Below are positions 5,497 to 20,330 of a stretch of DNA of 40,567 bases, piece by piece. The stretch lies in NCBI GenBank assembly GCA_022572725.1, contig JACZVJ010000011.1, positions 1 through 40,567 of the forward strand, given 5' to 3'. A program made the translations under genes and the position numbers. The notes under the pieces are model-generated. The model made no database searches. It was not told where the DNA came from and worked only from the letters and a program-made list of their open reading frames with translations. Position 1 is the first letter of the stretch, and each line of letters opens with the position of its first letter. Origin of the DNA: Nitrospinota bacterium. Its GTDB lineage: Bacteria; Nitrospirota; Nitrospiria; Nitrospirales; UBA8639.

Positions 5497-5949
5497 CTAC
5501 CCTACTCCCGCACTCAACGACAGTCGGCTATCATCCTCGAGGCTATTGACGAACTCGACGATTTCTTTCATGGGCGTCCCCGGTGGGAACAGGCCCCGTA
5601 CACCTGCGGTGATCAGTTGCGGAACGTCTTCATTGGGGATCACTCCGCCCCCGAACACCACAATGTCGTCAGCGCCTTTCTCCTTCAGCAATTCCAGCAC
5701 GCGGGGAAGCAGGTAATTGTGGGCGCCGGAATGGACGCTCAGGCCGATGGCTCTGACATCCTCTTGAATAGCCGTGTTGACGACCTGCTCAGGGGTTTGG
5801 TGTAAGCCAGTGTAAATCACCTCCATGCCCGCGTCCCGCAGCGCACGAGCAACCAGCTTGACACCACGGTCATGACCATCCAGCCCGACCTTCCCAACCA
5901 ACACTCGAATCGGAGGCTTACAGGACCCTGTATCTTTTCCTTTGATCAT
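5497..5949 (-). CDS. mcmA2: Methylmalonyl-CoA mutase small subunit, B12-binding domain
   Basis: A 150-residue stand-alone cobalamin domain. The lower-ligand motif DxHxxG is present as D24-G-H26-D-R-G29, followed by [13 protein letters not shown] and the [12 protein letters not shown] segment that cradles the nucleotide tail. It pairs with the separate catalytic barrel subunit encoded at 6830-8434 to convert (R)-methylmalonyl-CoA to succinyl-CoA. Split subunits of this kind are known in archaea and several bacterial phyla; proteobacterial and human mutases are fused. Its ATG overlaps the stop of the MBL hydrolase (ATGA), so it is translationally coupled to that gene rather than to the large subunit. 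Confidence 0.95.
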
Positions 5950-6829: not shown

Positions 6830-8434
6830 CTAGAGAACAACCGGCTCCTGATAAGTGCCGAATACTTTTTGCAGCACGGAACAGATTTCGCCAAGGGTTA
6901 CGTTGGCCTTTACCGCGTCAATCAAGTAGGGCATCATATTTTCGCTGGAGGATGCAGCCTTCTGGATGGCATGGAGGCTGGCTTCAACTTTTTTGGAGTC
7001 CCGACGTTTCCGGAGGTCCGACAATCGGCTGACCTGGTCTCTTTCGACTTCCTGGGTAATTTTGAGGATGGGAATTTGTTGGGAGTCCTCCTCAACGTTT
7101 TCATTGACCCCGATGATAACCCGTTCCTTTCGCTCCACCTCCTGCTGGTAGGCCATGGAGGCATTCAGGATTTCCCTTTGTGGGAATCCCTGTTCAATGG
7201 CTTTCAGCATCCCACCCATTTTGTCCAGTTTTCTGAAATATTCCTGAGCCCCTTCTTCCATCCGGGTAGTCAGGGATTCCAGGAAGAAGGAGCCCCCAAG
7301 TGGGTCTACCGTATTGGTGATTTCGCTTTCCCCGGCGATGATCTGTTGTGTTCGCAACGCCAGCGTCACGGCTTCTTGTGTTGGGAGGGCGAGGGTTTCG
7401 TCCATGGAGTTCGTATGCAGGGATTGCGTGCCTCCTAGCACGGCTGCGAGGGCCTGAAGAGTCGTGCGGACCACATTATTCATCGGCTGCTGCGCCGTGA
7501 GAGAACACCCAGCGGTCTGGGCATGGCAACGCAGTTGAAGTGATCGGGGATTTTGGGGGTGATAACGCTTTTGCATTTCCCGTGCCCACAACCGTCTGGC
7601 TGCTCGGAACTTGGCGATCTCTTCGAAGAAGTCATTATGGGCATTAAAGAAGAAGGAAAGCTGGGGGGCAAAAGCGTCGACCTCGAGTCCGGCTTTGACT
7701 GCCGCTTCCACATAGGTCAGTCCGTTATACAGGGTAAAGGCCAACTCTTGCACGGCAGACGATCCGGCTTCGCGAATGTGGTACCCGCTGATGCTGATGG
7801 GGTGCCATTTAGGAACCTGTTCACTGGAAAAAGCGATGGTATCGACAATCAATCTGAGATGTGGTTCCGGCGGGAAGAGCCACTCCTTTTGTGCAATGTA
7901 TTCTTTGAGGATGTCGTTCTGAAGAGTGCCTCCGAGTTGGTTAACGGAAATTCCACGCCGCTCCGCCACCGCCAGATACATCGCAAAGAGAATGGCGGCA
8001 GGGCCATTGATTGTCATGGAGGTGGTCACTTGATCGAGGGGGATATCCTCGAAGAGGCGCTCCATGTCTTCGAGAGAGGAAATCGCCACTCCGCAATAAC
8101 CAACCTCCCCGCGGGCCCGTGGATCGTCGGAATCCAGCCCCATCAAGGTCGGCATATCAAAGGCGACGCTGAGGCCGGTCTGGCCTTGGCTCAACAGGTA
8201 CTTGAACCGAGTGTTTGTGTCGGAGGCTGAACCGAATCCCGCGAACTGGCGCATGGTCCACAGCCGACCCCGGTACATGGTGGGATGAATTCCACGGGTG
8301 TAAGGGAATTCGCCTGGAGCGCCGAGGTCGCGTTCGGGCTCCCAGTCCTTGAGGTCATCCTTTGTGTAGAAGCTCGCAATCGGTAAGCCCGATAATGAGA
8401 CGAAGCGGTCTTTTCGCTCACGAGCCTGCTGCAT
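6830..8434 (-). CDS. mcmA1: Methylmalonyl-CoA mutase large (catalytic) subunit
   Basis: Catalytic TIM-barrel subunit of 534 residues for the B12-dependent rearrangement of methylmalonyl-CoA to succinyl-CoA. Specificity residues can be read by analogy to the Propionibacterium enzyme: the TMY tyrosine is Y54 (Tyr89 equivalent), the arginine in PHLRL is R194 (Arg207) and the catalytic histidine in ISGYH is H219 (His244). Isobutyryl- and hydroxyisobutyryl-CoA mutases replace the tyrosine and arginine, so a methylmalonyl-CoA substrate is favoured. The C-terminal B12 domain is absent and is supplied by the 150-residue subunit downstream. GAGGT precedes the ATG by 6 bases. It receives propionyl-CoA-derived carbon from valine and isoleucine breakdown. 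Confidence 0.96.
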
Positions 8435-13941: not shown

Positions 13942-15684
13942 TTAGGAGGCCAAAAGCCCCGGATCATCCCCCATCCTTTTCGGCTGTTCTTCCTTAAAAC
14001 AGAGGTCTCGGTATGGGTTTAATGCGTCTGCTAATCGATTCTTTAACTCCAGTCGCTTGGGCTTCCCCGTGGTCGTGTAGGGCACATCCTCTCCGAACAG
14101 CACGATTTTCGGGCATTTGGCAAAGGGTAATCGCCTCCGGCAAAAATCTATGATGGCGGATTGAGGCGGGGGCGGTTCACCATTGTGGAGGACCACATAG
14201 GCCGCAATTTCCTCTCCGTAGTAACGGTTTTCAAAGGGGACGGCCATGGCAAACTTGATTGATGGATGTCCTCTGAGGACCTCGTCAATTTCCAATGGTG
14301 AAATATTGATACCTCCTCGGATAATGAGCTCCTTCAATCTCCCTGAGATGAAAAAGAAAGGGCGTCCCTGGTCATCCCGCACAAAAAATCCCTCGTCCCC
14401 TGAACGGAACCACCCCCATTGAAAGGCAGCTTCGTTCACTTCCGGCCGTTTTAAATAGCCGGAGCACACTGTTTGTCCTCTAATACAAATTTCCCCTTTC
14501 GCCATTTCCGGGAGAGGCTGACCCTGGTCATCCAGGATGGCCATTTCGTTGTGACGGATCGGCACGCCAATGGAGGGATATTCATATCTGGTCAACCAAT
14601 AACGGTGTTCTTTGTCCGGGAGATCAATTGGCAAAAAGCAGGAATAACAGGTCGTTTCTGAGAGTCCGTATCCATGGCGAATGGGTACGTGGAATTGATC
14701 CTCAAAACGGGAGGCCGTCTCCTTCAATAATGGGCCGGCGCCGCAAATCACGCCACGGAATCGGTCTAGGCTATAGTGGGAGATATCCTCCGGTGCTTCT
14801 AGCAGGAACTCCAAAAGGGTAGGGACGACGCTGACGCATGCCACTTGTTCATCTTGGACCCGACGCCAGAAGGTAGCGGTCTTGAATTTCTTGTTCAGGA
14901 CAGCTTTGCCTTGGAAATAAAAGGGGGTGACCAAGGTCACCACGATCCCGTTGACGTGATGGATGGGGAGGACACACATGACACAATCGCCTCTTTCAAA
15001 TTGGTGCCATGAGGTAATGGCATCCGCATCTACCAAGAGGTTTTCTGCTTTCAACACCACTCCTTTAGGAGGTCCGGTGGTTCCAGAGGTGTACACAATC
15101 AAGGCCTCGTCCTCTAAGGCTCCTTCTAGGGAGAGCGAGGCGGGCTCTGCCCTGTGAAGTGCCTCTTTAAAAGAGCCGTGGGCTGAGGTGTCACCAACCT
15201 TGACCACTTTTCGGAGGTGAGGAAGATTGTTGATCACTTGTTGAATTTCCTCGTAGGCGTCTTCCCAGCAGAACAGCACGGAAGCCTCAGAGTGCTCGAG
15301 AATGTATCGTTTTTTATCCGGTAATTCGGTGAGATTAATAGGGACCACAGCAGCGCCTACGCTCCAGGCGGCAAAATAAATCAGGACTGTCTGGTCATGA
15401 TTGAACAGGACCGTTGCGATACGATCGCCTCTCCTTATCCCCAGGCGATCCCGGAGAACGGTAACCGTTCGTCTCACTGCCTCTCCAAATTCCGCGTAAG
15501 TGTAGATACGATGCTGGGCGTGGTCGTCATCGTAATAGCTCAGAAAGGTTTGCCCCGATAGGTGTGGATCTTGGGTCCTTTCATGAAGCAGTTGAGCAAA
15601 GGACGTGAAGGGAAGTTGGAACGGTGTCCCATTCATCTGATGGGCTTGAAGAATGTTTTCACATGCTTGGATGGAGGCGGCCAT
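13942..15684 (-). CDS. AMP-forming acyl-CoA synthetase/ligase
   Basis: An ANL-superfamily adenylating enzyme of 580 residues that activates a carboxylate with ATP and usually transfers it to CoA. Core motifs are in order: phosphate loop VYTSGTTGPPKGV, GYGLSETTC (A5), the hinge region RSGDEGFFV...ISGRLKELIIRGGINISP (A7-A8) and the C-terminal catalytic lysine in TTTGKPKR. The ATG at 15684 is preferred; GTG three codons upstream is also possible and the ribosome site is poor for both. It lies between the diiron-protein gene and E1alpha on the same strand. The substrate is not evident; a fatty, aromatic or branched acid would all fit. Confidence 0.9.
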   Translation of the reverse strand: MAASIQACENILQAHQMNGTPFQLPFTSFAQLLHERTQDPHLSGQTFLSYYDDDHAQHRIYTYAEFGEAVRRTVTVLRDRLGIRRGDRIATVLFNHDQTVLIYFAAWSVGAAVVPINLTELPDKKRYILEHSEASVLFCWEDAYEEIQQVINNLPHLRKVVKVGDTSAHGSFKEALHRAEPASLSLEGALEDEALIVYTSGTTGPPKGVVLKAENLLVDADAITSWHQFERGDCVMCVLPIHHVNGIVVTLVTPFYFQGKAVLNKKFKTATFWRRVQDEQVACVSVVPTLLEFLLEAPEDISHYSLDRFRGVICGAGPLLKETASRFEDQFHVPIRHGYGLSETTCYSCFLPIDLPDKEHRYWLTRYEYPSIGVPIRHNEMAILDDQGQPLPEMAKGEICIRGQTVCSGYLKRPEVNEAAFQWGWFRSGDEGFFVRDDQGRPFFFISGRLKELIIRGGINISPLEIDEVLRGHPSIKFAMAVPFENRYYGEEIAAYVVLHNGEPPPPQSAIIDFCRRRLPFAKCPKIVLFGEDVPYTTTGKPKRLELKNRLADALNPYRDLCFKEEQPKRMGDDPGLLAS

Positions 15685-15759
15685 GTGACTCACTCAAAAA
15701 TTTTTAAATCCGAAGGTTTGTCCAGCGATGTTAAAGACAACTCACTTAAATCAACCACG

Positions 15760-16485
15760 TTAGACCACCCCCGCCTGGTGAGGCGTAGACCGTTGTTTCT
15801 CAAGACCCATCCAGAACCCTTCAAGGTAGTCCAGAACCATCGTGACCCCCTGGTGAAAATCTTGACCCTCCTCAGGCGACAAGTTCTTTGATCCCGTTGC
15901 TTGTTCTTCCATCGCAGCTACAGCCTTTTCCATAGCCTCTTCATGGGTACTCTCTAGCTCTCGGTGAAAGGTGAAGTAGGTGGTATCCATGTTGGGGTGG
16001 CTCGACTGTTGAAGAGCAACCAACCCGGGGATGAGGTGATCCCACATGGTGATAGCCATATTTTCCAGGCCGAAAGAAGCGCCAAGTGCCTGGGCATGAT
16101 TCCCGCTCCCATAGAGGGCCTCCATCCCATCGATATAGGCCTTCGTGGACGGCATCATGGGTTGGGTAAGGGCCTGATGGATGTCTATGCCAATTGATCG
16201 AAGGAACTTTCGATAGAGGAGTTCATGCCGATGGTGTGGGCTGCCTTCCCCGAGTTCCGAGTACAGCACTCGGGTCAACTCGTCGGCGATCAATTCATCT
16301 TCGGTATTGACTAACTGGGAGACGAGGATCTTGGGGAAGAATCGGGTGAAGTTGTAAAATTCTATAGCGAAATGGCGGAGTTCCGGATCCGACACATCAC
16401 CGGTTCGAAACCAGTCGAGATAAGGGTTGTGAATCGCACTGTGGCCCAGAACGACGTCTCGCATTTGATGGTAGAACCTAGACAT
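15760..16485 (-). CDS. Heme-oxygenase-fold iron-containing redox protein (TenA/PqqC/CADD-like)
   Basis: A 241-residue all-helical protein of the heme-oxygenase-like diiron oxidase type. Metal-ligand-like positions are visible in the expected helices: the E in LYSELGEGSPHHRH with its nearby histidines, the E in SFGLENMAITMWDH, and an HxxxExxxH pattern in FHRELESTHEE. These are typical of CADD/UndA-type diiron proteins and differ from the cysteine-based thiaminase TenA. It is first in the minus-strand run, so it may mark the promoter-proximal end. What it oxidises is unknown. A role in cofactor (for example p-aminobenzoate) synthesis or in fatty-acid decarboxylation, as in known relatives, is only a family-level possibility. 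Confidence 0.8.
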   Translation of the reverse strand: MSRFYHQMRDVVLGHSAIHNPYLDWFRTGDVSDPELRHFAIEFYNFTRFFPKILVSQLVNTEDELIADELTRVLYSELGEGSPHHRHELLYRKFLRSIGIDIHQALTQPMMPSTKAYIDGMEALYGSGNHAQALGASFGLENMAITMWDHLIPGLVALQQSSHPNMDTTYFTFHRELESTHEEAMEKAVAAMEEQATGSKNLSPEEGQDFHQGVTMVLDYLEGFWMGLEKQRSTPHQAGVV

Positions 16486-16877
16486 GGTCTTGTTCCCCCC
16501 TGTGGTTAGCCTTTCTCCTGCAAGTCCTTTTCATGCCCCTCCAACCCTCTTTTGCAATAATAATTATTTTTTATCATAAACCTGTTTTAAGCCCAAGTTC
16601 AATCCTAATGTGAGTAAACAAAATTTTCTACACCCTAAAAATCCTATCAATTTAGCTAATTTTTGTACGATAAGTAATTATAGATGTTTATTTTACAATT
16701 ATTCTATGTTATTATTTGTCGTTGAATCAGGAAAAGATCTTAAGGGCTTGTGAGTCAAGTCCGGTTGAAGTGCTGTAGAGTGGCGAGGCAGGGAGCCGGG
16801 CGAGTGGTGAAAGAGAAGGTCGCCTGCAGAGTTGGCGGAACGGACTAATGGAACGGTCTTCAAGAGGAGGGAAGAAC
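16486..16877. promoter_or_regulatory. A+T-rich divergent intergenic region
   Basis: This gap separates the long minus-strand catabolic run from the plus-strand tyrosine operon, so it should hold both promoters. Bases from about 16555 to 16735 are strikingly A+T-rich compared with the genes on either side, including many short A and T tracts that could act as UP elements or bind a nucleoid protein. A TATAAT-like hexamer occurs on the minus strand near 16678-16683, but I see no convincing -35 partner at normal spacing, so exact promoters are not called. Confidence 0.5.
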
Positions 16878-17444
16878 ATGGAAGGAGCAGTTGGGATTGA
16901 TCATATTACACTTTGCGTTCCTGACCTTCAGGCTGCTGAATACCTCTTCACAAAAATTCTGGGGTTTCACGCCATCTGGTCGGCACAGGATGTCGGAACG
17001 GATAAATCAAGCATGGACACCATCGTTGTGCAGCGTGGGAACGTCAAGGTTGCCCTCATGCAGGGACGAGACAAGCAAGAAAAATCCCAGATCACCGACT
17101 TTGTTGAACGATATGGGCCCGGCATTCAACATGTTGCCATAGAGGTTGATGACATCGAAGCGGTTTGTAAGGAATGGGAAGGGCGGGGGGTGAAGTTCTC
17201 TGGCCCCCTTAAGGAAGGGCGGGATGGGTTTGGCCCATTGAAACAACGGTTTACCTTTCCCTTATTTCCAGGAAGTGGGGTATTTTTCGAACTGACCCAG
17301 CGACAACATGGGGAGGAGAAATCCAAGACCTTTGTCCGGGAAATTGTAGAATCGCTTTATAAGGATATCGAACGCGACCAAGATCTGGGAGTTGATAAGA
17401 CGATCATCGACTATGCTCAGGTCCCTGGAGAATCCCATTCGTAA
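16878..17444 (+). CDS. Single-domain VOC dioxygenase, HPPD-like
   Basis: A 188-residue vicinal-oxygen-chelate protein. A metal-binding triad is readable: H9 (IDHITL), H85 (GPGIQHVAIEVDD) and E138 (VFFELTQRQ). The GPGIQH and FFE..QR sequences closely resemble the C-terminal catalytic domain of 4-hydroxyphenylpyruvate dioxygenase, which converts 4-hydroxyphenylpyruvate to homogentisate. Normal HPPD is about 350 residues with two VOC domains; here the N-terminal domain is missing. The start at 16878 follows AGGAGGG at 6 bases; an upstream in-frame ATG at 16848 lacks a site. Homogentisate dioxygenase begins 35 bases later, strongly supporting an HPPD role. Methylmalonyl-CoA epimerase, another single-VOC protein, is the main alternative. 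Confidence 0.82.
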   Translation: MEGAVGIDHITLCVPDLQAAEYLFTKILGFHAIWSAQDVGTDKSSMDTIVVQRGNVKVALMQGRDKQEKSQITDFVERYGPGIQHVAIEVDDIEAVCKEWEGRGVKFSGPLKEGRDGFGPLKQRFTFPLFPGSGVFFELTQRQHGEEKSKTFVREIVESLYKDIERDQDLGVDKTIIDYAQVPGESHS

Positions 17445-17479: not shown

Positions 17480-18580
17480 ATGTACCTGGTCAAAAAAGGA
17501 AACCCTCCGAACCAAGCCCATGTAGGCATTCCACCGGACCTGCATGAAGAGGAGCATGGGCGCAGCGGGTTTTCAGGGCCGGCCTCACATTTATACCGCT
17601 CCCATCCTCCGACGGGATGGACACGAATTGAGGGCCCTTGTCGGCCCCGCGCCTTTTCCTGTGCCGACCTTGTCACTCCCGATTTTCTTTCTGAAGAGAA
17701 TCAGCCGATTGAGATTCTTAGAAGCCCCGATGTCCGGGTTTTCATTTCCCGGCGGGCCAAGTCCATGCCCTATTACTTTCGAAATGCTGACGGAGATGAA
17801 CTTCACTTCGTCCATAGGGGTCGTGGGACATTGGAAACTGATTATGGAACCCTTTCATACGAGCCGGGAGACTATATCCTTTTGCCCAAGGGGACGACGT
17901 ATAGGATCGTCGTCGAAGAGGGACCCGGACTTGCCCTCATCGTTGAATCACCGGACCCCCTGGTGCTTCCGGACCGGGGCCTCCTCGGCCACCACGCCTT
18001 ATTTGACCAAGGCGTCCTCGTCGTCCCTGAGCTGGCCCCCGCCGGCGAAGACCGGCCTGAATGGGAAGTCCGGATTAAACGGGATGGCGCCTATACGCGA
18101 GTGTTTTATCCCTTTTGCCCCATGGACGTGGTCGGGTGGAAAGGCGATTTGTGGCCGACAAAACTCAATGTCCGGGATATCCGGCCAGTGACGAGCCCCC
18201 GCTATCACCTCCCCCCTAGTGTCCATACCACATTCAAAGCCGCTGGGATGATGATCTCCACCTTCGTGCCCAGGCCCCTGGAAACCGACCCGGAGGCGCA
18301 AAAGGTGCCTTTTTACCATCGGAACATGGATTACGACGAGGTGCTCTTTTATCACGAAGGGGATTTTTTTAGCCGATCAGGAATCAAACCCGGAACGATG
18401 ACCCTGCATCCCCAAGGCATTCACCACGGTCCCCACCCCGCCGCTGTGGAAGCTAGTAAAACCAAAAAGCACACCAATGAGGTAGCGGTGATGGTTGAGT
18501 CTCGACGCCCTTTCCAAGTTCTCCCTGAGGCTGAAACGGTTGAACTCAAAGACTACGACAAAAGTTGGAGCCACCCATGA
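17480..18580 (+). CDS. hmgA: Homogentisate 1,2-dioxygenase
   Basis: Opens the ring of homogentisate to maleylacetoacetate using Fe(II) and O2. The 366-residue cupin protein has the N-terminal half with GDELHFVHRGRGTLETD and a GDYILLPKGTTY turn, and a C-terminal half with NMDYDEVLFYHEGDFFSRSG and HPQGIHHGPHP, where the iron-binding H, E and H are expected. It is shorter than the 430-440-residue proteobacterial/human enzyme, like the compact form in several other phyla. AAGGGGG precedes the ATG. The final codons overlap the next gene (ATGA), so it is coupled to the fumarylacetoacetase-like gene, the next step after isomerisation. Confidence 0.93.
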   Translation: MYLVKKGNPPNQAHVGIPPDLHEEEHGRSGFSGPASHLYRSHPPTGWTRIEGPCRPRAFSCADLVTPDFLSEENQPIEILRSPDVRVFISRRAKSMPYYFRNADGDELHFVHRGRGTLETDYGTLSYEPGDYILLPKGTTYRIVVEEGPGLALIVESPDPLVLPDRGLLGHHALFDQGVLVVPELAPAGEDRPEWEVRIKRDGAYTRVFYPFCPMDVVGWKGDLWPTKLNVRDIRPVTSPRYHLPPSVHTTFKAAGMMISTFVPRPLETDPEAQKVPFYHRNMDYDEVLFYHEGDFFSRSGIKPGTMTLHPQGIHHGPHPAAVEASKTKKHTNEVAVMVESRRPFQVLPEAETVELKDYDKSWSHP

Positions 18581-19557
18581 AATTAGTAACTTTTCAAGTT
18601 TCTACGCCTATTGGAAAATTCGCCAGAGTTGGGGCCTTACACCATGAGACGATCGTGGATCTGAATATGGCTTACACCCTCATGCTGGCGGACAATCAGG
18701 AATCCCAACCCCATCGCCTTGCTGGCGCCGAGGTGCCTCCCACAATGAAGGAATTCCTGGAAGGGGGGCCTTCAGCGATGGACAAGGCTCGAAAGGCTTT
18801 TTCCCACGTCACGGAACGGCAGGAACCGGTCCAAGGACCCGAGGGAGAAACGATCGTGTATCAGGCCGATGGAGTTCGTCTCCTTGCCCCGATCCCTAAT
18901 CCCCCAATGATGCGGGATTTCATCGCCTTTGAGGATCACATTGCCGCCACTTCCAAAAGGCGAGGACAGCCGATTCCCCCTGAATGGTACAAAGCCCCGG
19001 TCTACTACAAAGGAAATCCGCTCACCATCATCGGACCCCAGGACGAACTCCCCTGGCCCTTGAACACCACCAAGTTGGATTATGAATTGGAGCTAGCTTG
19101 CGTGATTGGACGACGGGGAAAGGATATTTCCGTGAACGAGGCATCCCAGTACATCGCCGGATACACCATTATGAATGACTTCAGCGCCCGGGACGTACAA
19201 TTCCAAGAAATGGCCTGTCGGCTGGGACCAGCCAAAGGAAAAGATTTTGCGACCGTTCTTGGCCCCTGCCTGGTGACACCGGATGAAATTCCCGATATCA
19301 ATCAACTCACCATGATTGCTCGCATCAACGGAGAGGTCTGGTCGGAAGGGCGTTTTGGCACGATTCATTGGTCCTTTGCCCAGATGATCGGTCATGTTTC
19401 CCAGGGAGAAGCTATTTACCCCGGTGAGGTGTTCGGCTCTGGAACCGTTGGAGGTGGGTGCGGGTTGGAAATGGATCGGTATTTAAAGCCTGGGGATGTT
19501 GTTGAGTTGGAGATCCAGCCAATCGGAATTTTGAGAACCAGGGTAAAGGAAGCTTAA
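18577..19557 (+). CDS. Fumarylacetoacetate hydrolase family protein
   Basis: A 326-residue FAH-fold hydrolase. The metal ligands and signature appear as DYELELACVIGRRGKDI (acidic ligands), YTIMNDFSARDVQ and a later GSGTVGGGCGLEM loop. The start at 18577 overlaps the hmgA stop and has GGAG upstream; a start 12 bases earlier is less likely. Placement directly after homogentisate dioxygenase points to cleavage of fumaryl- or maleylacetoacetate to fumarate (or maleate) and acetoacetate. No maleylacetoacetate isomerase is seen nearby, so the enzyme may hydrolyse the maleyl isomer directly. The family also includes other C-C hydrolases and decarboxylases. Confidence 0.9.
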   Translation: MKLVTFQVSTPIGKFARVGALHHETIVDLNMAYTLMLADNQESQPHRLAGAEVPPTMKEFLEGGPSAMDKARKAFSHVTERQEPVQGPEGETIVYQADGVRLLAPIPNPPMMRDFIAFEDHIAATSKRRGQPIPPEWYKAPVYYKGNPLTIIGPQDELPWPLNTTKLDYELELACVIGRRGKDISVNEASQYIAGYTIMNDFSARDVQFQEMACRLGPAKGKDFATVLGPCLVTPDEIPDINQLTMIARINGEVWSEGRFGTIHWSFAQMIGHVSQGEAIYPGEVFGSGTVGGGCGLEMDRYLKPGDVVELEIQPIGILRTRVKEA

Positions 19558-19559
19558 GC

Positions 19560-20330
19560 ATGGGTACTGTCACTGACCAGAGCAAAAGGCTGTCCGATGT
19601 GATCGAGCGCAATCGGCTGCTGTACTCTGACCCAAACATTGATGCGACGATCCAAGGGATCATCAGTCCCTCGCCACAATCGGGCCTTTCTGAGTGGGAC
19701 ATCTTGCGGATTCTCCGTCATTCCCAGTCGGTCTTTTTCGACACGCACATTGAGGTCGTATCAGGCCAACACACGGCCACATATCTCCGATTTGAATCTA
19801 TCGCGCAGTATCCCCAATTGATTCGGGTCATCGCCCGTGGCATGGGGAAATGGATCGCTCAGCTCACCAAAAACCATAGAATTGAGGGAATTGTGGCCCC
19901 TGCCTCGGATGCCCGACTCTTGGCCGAGGGCATTGCGGCATACCTGGAGGCGGAAATTCCCTTGCGTGTGGTTCTGGCGCCCTTCGACCGCGCAACGGGA
20001 AAAATTGGAACGGATGTCCCTAGCGAAGCTATTCGAGAGGGTGAACATTTCCTCGCCTTGAACGATGTCACCGCTCGCGGCAACTGTGTCAACAAGCTGG
20101 GCCAAATCGTGACGGACCGCGGTGGGAATCTTGTCGGGATGATGGTTTGTGTACGGCGAGATAGCGGCCAGTTTCCTTTTATGGACGAGCTGGCCGCCCA
20201 CTATCCTTTTTACTTTGGGGCGGCCTTGGACATGCCCCAATGGGACCCCTCGGATTGTCCTTTGTGTCGTGCCGGGGAAACGTTATTCTCCTGGAAGGAC
20301 ATGCCGTTTTTGTTGCCGGATGGCTGTTGA
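19560..20330 (+). CDS. Phosphoribosyltransferase-like protein (orotate PRTase type)
   Basis: A 256-residue protein with a type I PRTase core. The PRPP-binding region reads HFLALNDVTARGNCVNK, a variant of the usual hydrophobic-ED-V-TTG-S loop in which the second acidic residue and the TTGG turn are changed. Upstream IEGIVAPASDARLLAEGIA resembles the conserved strand-helix of orotate PRTases. A C-terminal CPLC pair might bind metal. It starts 3 bases after the FAH stop with an AAGGA site inside that gene's end, so it belongs to the tyrosine operon. Why a PRTase should sit here is unclear. Altered PRPP residues mean catalysis is uncertain; a regulatory or divergent role is possible. Confidence 0.72.
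   Translation: MGTVTDQSKRLSDVIERNRLLYSDPNIDATIQGIISPSPQSGLSEWDILRILRHSQSVFFDTHIEVVSGQHTATYLRFESIAQYPQLIRVIARGMGKWIAQLTKNHRIEGIVAPASDARLLAEGIAAYLEAEIPLRVVLAPFDRATGKIGTDVPSEAIREGEHFLALNDVTARGNCVNKLGQIVTDRGGNLVGMMVCVRRDSGQFPFMDELAAHYPFYFGAALDMPQWDPSDCPLCRAGETLFSWKDMPFLLPDGC

Follow-up and report, generated by a model that had tools for sequence, protein, structure and literature searches.

A conserved HPPD/HMS-group protein with a single domain, paired with hmgA in Nitrospira, and its probable role in tyrosine breakdown

Described VOC enzymes and half-size relatives

4-Hydroxyphenylpyruvate dioxygenase (HPPD, EC 1.13.11.27), a major herbicide target and also a drug target in tyrosinaemia, has two VOC domains per chain, and the HPPDs compared here carry an N-terminal VOC domain without known catalytic function. 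The window analysed here (the whole stretch of DNA, 40,567 nucleotides) encodes a protein of half this length, with one VOC domain and a C-terminal helix, which we refer to as the Nitrospira protein. It resembles HPPD in its catalytic fold and gating helix, in its triad of two His and one Glu, in having equivalents of Gln293, Gln307, Gln379, Phe381, and Ser267, and in its operon with homogentisate dioxygenase (HGD) and a gene of the fumarylacetoacetate-hydrolase (FAH) family. It differs in lacking the N-terminal domain and an insert of 30-40 residues, in having Val/Tyr for Phe/Phe in the helix and Met for Asn282, and in branching outside the clade formed by HPPD and 4-hydroxymandelate synthase (HMS, or HmaS). 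HMS, also a two-domain enzyme, shares with the Nitrospira protein the triad, Met46, an aliphatic residue at position 61, and an aliphatic/Tyr helix pair, but again the Nitrospira protein lacks the N-terminal domain and insert, and its gene lies with HGD and FAH rather than with mandelate oxidase and an HpgT-type aminotransferase. Methylmalonyl-CoA epimerase is alike in its single VOC domain and His/His/Glu metal positions, but the Nitrospira protein is without the extra ligand and catalytic Glu of that enzyme, has a C-terminal helix, and scores higher to HPPD. Searches of the open-licence literature turned up neither a half-size HPPD nor a tyrosine operon in Nitrospira.

Other half-size VOC proteins exist. 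Proteins of about 180 residues, annotated as “VOC family protein”, are encoded on plasmids of rhizobia, Vibrio europaeus, and Paraburkholderia (L032-L035 and L178), in most cases next to NRPS and aminotransferase genes, the latter of PLP type at several of these loci. They have one VOC domain, a C-terminal helix, and the triad, lack the insert, are 28-35% identical to the Nitrospira protein, and likewise carry Val at the position of human F364, but they differ in having Phe at the Tyr161 position and in their NRPS context. We regard them as candidate single-domain hydroxymandelate synthases. On the Sinorhizobium meliloti plasmid accessoryA (L031:5686-6468), a chorismate mutase is fused in front of a half-size HPPD/HMS-like domain within an NRPS cluster, adjoined by pabB, prephenate dehydrogenase, and a class IV aminotransferase, a gene set that suggests aminophenylpyruvate as the dioxygenase substrate. 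A third half-size VOC type, of 171 residues, occurs in another Nitrospirota family (L165-L168), and at one of these loci (L166) it adjoins a saccharopine-dehydrogenase-like gene.

The gene, its predicted fold, and its operon

The gene, the codons of its predicted metal site, and its neighbours lie as follows:

16878..17444, + strand: predicted single-domain HPPD-like Fe(II) dioxygenase gene, 188 aa, half HPPD length; AlphaFold model with a structural match to the C-terminal half of HPPD/HMS
16902..16904, + strand: codon of His9, predicted Fe ligand 1; invariant in 37 orthologues and all compared HPPD/HMS rows
17130..17132, + strand: codon of His85, predicted Fe ligand 2; invariant, preceded by Gln84 (Arabidopsis Gln307)
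17289..17291, + strand: codon of Glu138, predicted Fe ligand 3; invariant
17337..17384, + strand: C-terminal gating helix, residues 154-169 (DSSP on the model), with V157/Y161
17480..18580, + strand: hmgA, short-form homogentisate 1,2-dioxygenase, 366 aa (PF20510, PF04209, TIGR01015)
18565..19557, + strand: FAH-family gene, 330 aa (PF01557, E 2.6e-58); third gene of the cassette, conserved
19560..20330, + strand: phosphoribosyltransferase-like gene (TIGR01367, 54.6 bits, under cut-off); conserved neighbour
15760..16485, - strand: divergent haem-oxygenase-like diiron-family gene (PF14518; weak BesC and CADD matches); conserved neighbour
13942..15693, - strand: AMP-forming acyl-CoA ligase; adjoins the cassette in many, not all, relatives

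The frame runs uninterrupted through 188 codons, with a Shine-Dalgarno-like GAGGAGGGA directly 5' of the ATG at 16878, and an alternative in-frame start at 16848, giving a longer protein, is unsupported by the starts of orthologues. The first-pass annotation had described a single VOC domain of 188 residues with the triad H9/H85/E138 and the motifs GPGIQH and FFELTQR; the translation and the model agree on the single domain, the triad is where it was placed, and both motifs are present (residues 80-85 and 136-142). Its proposal of kinship with the HPPD catalytic domain is borne out by family, PDB, and structural comparisons alike. The best family match is to HPPD, in its C-terminal (catalytic) half only (TIGR01263, 89.7 bits, E 2.5e-25, model positions 157-263 and a second stretch); this is far under the curated cut-off of 277 bits, which counts against HPPD, though any protein of half length would fall short likewise. 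HPPDs top the 46 matches of a PDB sequence search, and the Pfam families Glyoxalase (PF00903), Glyoxalase_4 (PF13669), and Glyoxalase_3 all match above their cut-offs.

An AlphaFold2 model built from 37 orthologues, all from Nitrospira, reached a pLDDT of 85 and a pTM of 0.80. Its first module comprises a strand (6-13), a helix (17-27), and strands 31-40, 44-53, and 56-65, and its second a helix (71-79), a strand (82-89), a helix (93-102), and strands 107-116, 119-126, and 136-142, followed by the C-terminal helix. Residues 1-172 align with the catalytic C-terminal halves of HPPD and HMS, with the gating helix in place. Structural Z scores were 20.1 to HMS 3zgj, 19.4 to rice HPPD, 19.3 to human HPPD, and 19.2 to HMS 2r5v, against 14.0 to methylmalonyl-CoA epimerase; as we treat differences within 1 as ties, the HPPD and HMS values tie and the fold does not discriminate between these two enzymes. 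The paired beta-alpha-beta-beta-beta modules round a metal site that characterise the VOC superfamily are thus both found in the model of one chain. The earlier statement that VOC enzymes need paired modules holds insofar as the pairing is present, but a single domain already contains both modules. That a homodimer would be needed to recreate the fold is not supported: metal barrel and gating helix are both complete in the predicted monomer, and a site that is whole within one VOC domain does not require a homodimer. A dimer of the 188-residue protein may exist.

As the first-pass annotation also had it, the gene heads a tyrosine/homogentisate operon, with hmgA and the FAH-family gene downstream on the same strand. 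HmgA matches the P. putida HGD structure (E 7.6e-20) with its Fe-ligand motifs retained, is 39% identical to the HGD adjoining Tsukamurella hppD, and resembles HGDs next to true hppD genes. In nearly all relatives the PF14518 gene lies next to the cassette in divergent orientation. Elsewhere, the window codes for hydroxymethylglutaryl-CoA lyase, a carboxylase, enoyl-CoA hydratases, 3-hydroxyacyl-CoA dehydrogenase, and thiolase, as well as 2-oxo-acid dehydrogenase components (from translations) and methylcitrate-cycle genes (Pfam/NCBIfam). It reads as an amino-acid catabolic island, a setting with which tyrosine breakdown would be consistent.

Distribution and phylogenetic position

The genome of origin (3.17 Mb, 98.96% complete, 3% contamination) was searched in full for a two-domain HPPD, and apart from the 188-residue protein itself the only match was a second VOC protein, and a weak one. 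The earlier observation that no full-length HPPD lies beside hmgA therefore extends to the whole genome, and the search did not find a hidden two-domain HPPD, which would have spoken against the half-size enzyme. The second, more distant VOC protein (contig C171, L171:6352-7194) also occurs at L025-L030 and in many Nitrospirales; it has about 200 residues in relatives, and its LRQIF and LELTERHAGYQGF motifs resemble the HPPD catalytic domain.

Scanning named genomes yielded 65 loci with the half-size gene, apparently all from Nitrospira and kin, at 68-81% identity and with the frame intact at nearly all of them; N. moscoviensis (L078) and Ca. N. defluvii (L080) both have the cassette. At all sufficiently long loci, the half-size gene has the divergent PF14518 gene upstream and is followed by hmgA, FAH, and the phosphoribosyltransferase-like gene. 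Of the 395 Nitrospirota genomes searched, a strong match to the half-size protein occurs in 52 and hmgA in 54; all 52 are among the 54 (Fisher p 4e-63, kinship ignored), and the half-size gene lies directly upstream of hmgA wherever the contig is long enough. One of the two remaining genomes (G361, 87% complete) has an hmgA fragment only. The other (G014) encodes a two-domain HPPD of 387 residues (253 bits, slightly below cut-off) in an operon with the order HPPD-FAH-HGD, an ordinary tyrosine operon that was probably acquired separately. This operon (L163, from the same family) also contains a flavin reductase-like gene, a thiolase, and a CoA ligase. None of the 395 genomes has both the half-size gene and a two-domain HPPD, and an HPPD without the half-size gene, as in G014, fits a view of the two as mutual substitutes.

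A phylogeny against HPPD and the epimerase had been suggested in the first-pass annotation; ours sampled both domains of HPPD and HMS, catalytic as well as N-terminal, together with epimerases and three half-size families. By their catalytic domains, HPPD and HMS group in a single clade (100/98); the Nitrospira protein falls next to it but just outside (91/82), not within HPPD. Constraining it to group with HPPD alone (AU p 0.014) or with HMS alone (AU p 0.013) was rejected, while a single clade of all half-size families gave AU p values of 0.27 and 0.14. The topology was stable when the N-terminal domains and the helix columns were left out (HPPD+HMS 98-99/96-97), with a long-branch warning from the tool. 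The insert, of roughly 30-40 residues and common to the catalytic domains of HPPD and HMS, is absent from all half-size proteins. We reject a trimmed modern HPPD, as the Nitrospira protein lacks this insert and does not lie inside HPPD on the tree, and it is no recent truncation because its lineage split before HPPD and HMS separated. The half-size form may be ancestral or may reflect an old loss; the root of the tree is not fixed.

The pocket and the probable function

We compared pocket residues in Arabidopsis numbering, using published mutagenesis (PMC6750108). Ser44, Gln71, Gln84, Gln123, and Phe125 correspond to Ser267, Gln293, Gln307, Gln379, and Phe381 and, like the triad, are invariant in the 37 orthologues. 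Of the Ser267-Asn282-Gln293-Gln307 hydrogen-bond network (PMC6750108), three positions are retained as Ser44, Gln71, and Gln84, but Asn282 is Met61; Asn423 is replaced by Thr156 in orthologues and by Ile156 in the window protein. Both replacements count against HPPD function, and N282A in Arabidopsis HPPD cuts efficiency by a factor of about 160 (PMC6750108). What argues most strongly against a plain HPPD is the helix, where all 37 orthologues have V157/Y161 instead of the Phe/Phe of HPPD (human F364/F368): in S. avermitilis HPPD, F337I abolishes about 98% of activity, with some hydroxymandelate and an oxepinone as products, and F341Y abolishes about 80% (PMC3739788). An aliphatic/Tyr pair is a feature of HMS (I or V / Y in the HMS rows, of which L176 adjoins genes for an alpha-hydroxy-acid oxidase and an aminotransferase, a context that supports its role as HMS). 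Judged from these residues, the pocket mixes features of HPPD and HMS. The earlier reading as an HPPD-type enzyme, which we share in part, had overlooked the HMS-type helix pair, the missing insert, and the branching outside HPPD+HMS.

Established here are the open frame, the fold as predicted, the triad, the kinship, the strict co-occurrence with hmgA, and the lack of any other HPPD. We consider it probable that the gene product is a stand-alone arylpyruvate dioxygenase of one domain, which stands in for HPPD and feeds homogentisate to HmgA. This reading is based on the C-terminal HPPD match, the structural alignment, the pairing with hmgA, the two-domain HPPD found instead in G014, and the retained catalytic residues, from which we infer the iron, substrate, and product. 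One 188-residue chain would form a complete VOC barrel from its two modules, hold Fe(II) by H9, H85, and E138, and seal the pocket by means of the helix at its C-terminus. 4-Hydroxyphenylpyruvate, derived from tyrosine, would react with O2 by decarboxylation and then ring hydroxylation to give homogentisate, which would pass to HmgA, the product of the next gene, and on to the FAH-family hydrolase. The N-terminal domain of HPPD and the insert in its catalytic domain are both simply missing. Given the V157/Y161 pocket, the product may be homogentisate or 4-hydroxymandelate.

It is unlikely that the protein is instead an Fe(II) dioxygenase acting on a different arylpyruvate or 2-oxo acid, with a product (e.g., a ring-substituted homogentisate) that still enters the HmgA step. 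The changes of Asn282 to Met61 and Asn423 to Thr156 affect residues that contact the phenol ring or help to position it, a search for phenylalanine hydroxylase in the genome of origin found none, and the conserved CoA-ligase and diiron-family neighbours are not accounted for; however, there is no positive evidence for a different substrate, and the HmgA and FAH neighbours look ordinary.

A little less likely still is a single-domain HMS, in which the Fe(IV)-oxo would attack the benzylic carbon to yield 4-hydroxymandelate, with substrate and triad unchanged. The helix pair V157/Y161 fits HMS and not HPPD, Met46 and Met61 lie where HMS has Met and Ile/Val/Leu and most HPPDs have Leu and Asn, Thr151-Phe152 resembles the TFG of HMS, the Z scores to HMS and HPPD are equal, and the half-size relatives in NRPS clusters have genes for aminotransferases and for an Ldh-type oxidoreductase beside them, a context shared with HMS genes. 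Yet the invariant partner of the Nitrospira gene is homogentisate dioxygenase, not mandelate oxidase or an aminotransferase, the protein has one domain in an hmgA/FAH context instead of two in an NRPS/hydroxyphenylglycine context, and the tree excludes it from HPPD+HMS. As grouping with HMS was rejected, the residues it shares with HMS may be inherited from an ancestor instead of indicating function.

Methylmalonyl-CoA epimerase, named as an alternative to HPPD in the first-pass annotation, would serve the propionyl-CoA/B12-mutase genes of the window:

6830-8434 or 6857-8392, - strand: B12 acyl-CoA mutase, large subunit; methylmalonyl-CoA mutase by general models
5497-5949: B12 subunit of the mutase
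900-1706: MeaB

We weighed this reading seriously because the genome has no epimerase above cut-off and a B12 mutase lies within about 10 kb, a spacing kept in most relatives; known epimerases also have a single VOC domain, and the 188-residue protein is the best TIGR03081 match in its genome. That match, however, is about 61 bits (60.6-61) against a curated cut-off of 115, whereas genuine epimerases in deeper relatives reach 154-163 bits and adjoin their own mutase; among 24 genomes tested, epimerases above cut-off occur in three such deep relatives only. All 37 orthologues carry Ala59 where epimerases have an additional metal-binding Gln (or Glu, in those of the relatives), residues vary around the place of the catalytic Glu (D/E/N/H/A/K at position 42), and the C-terminal helix is absent from epimerases. 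Six Nitrospirales genomes with the mutase and without the half-size gene also have no epimerase above cut-off. The best PDB match of the mutase is 2-hydroxyisobutyryl-CoA mutase, and it has Phe at IRQ[Y]AGF, where human methylmalonyl-CoA mutase (MCM) has Tyr, and Gln at KEFMV[R]NTY, where MCM has Arg, a pattern we associate with isobutyryl- or 2-hydroxyisobutyryl-CoA mutase; on this presumed meaning of the residues, the mutase would require no epimerase. On residues, scores, and the active site of the mutase itself, we reject the epimerase as very improbable. An inactive, decayed HPPD fragment, which half length and two altered pocket residues might suggest, is scarcely credible for a gene with an intact frame, found in 52 genomes, with triad and pocket residues invariant over 37 diverse orthologues and no nesting inside HPPD on the tree.

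The Nitrospira protein is real and conserved, belongs to the HPPD/HMS group with one domain only, and occupies the place of HPPD, with HPPD activity as its probable function. Such an enzyme would fill an apparent gap in Nitrospira tyrosine breakdown, where HGD and FAH are otherwise annotated without an HPPD. We also entertain, more tentatively, that it is a single-domain survivor predating the HPPD/HMS split, the N-terminal domain, and the insert, and that it makes homogentisate with an HMS-like pocket; if this is true, the N-terminal domain and the Phe/Phe pair, held to be essential in HPPD, would be later refinements. A half-size enzyme would allow the pocket residues that decide between homogentisate and hydroxymandelate to be tested, and a natural enzyme without the N-terminal domain would reveal the purpose of that domain and offer a minimal scaffold.
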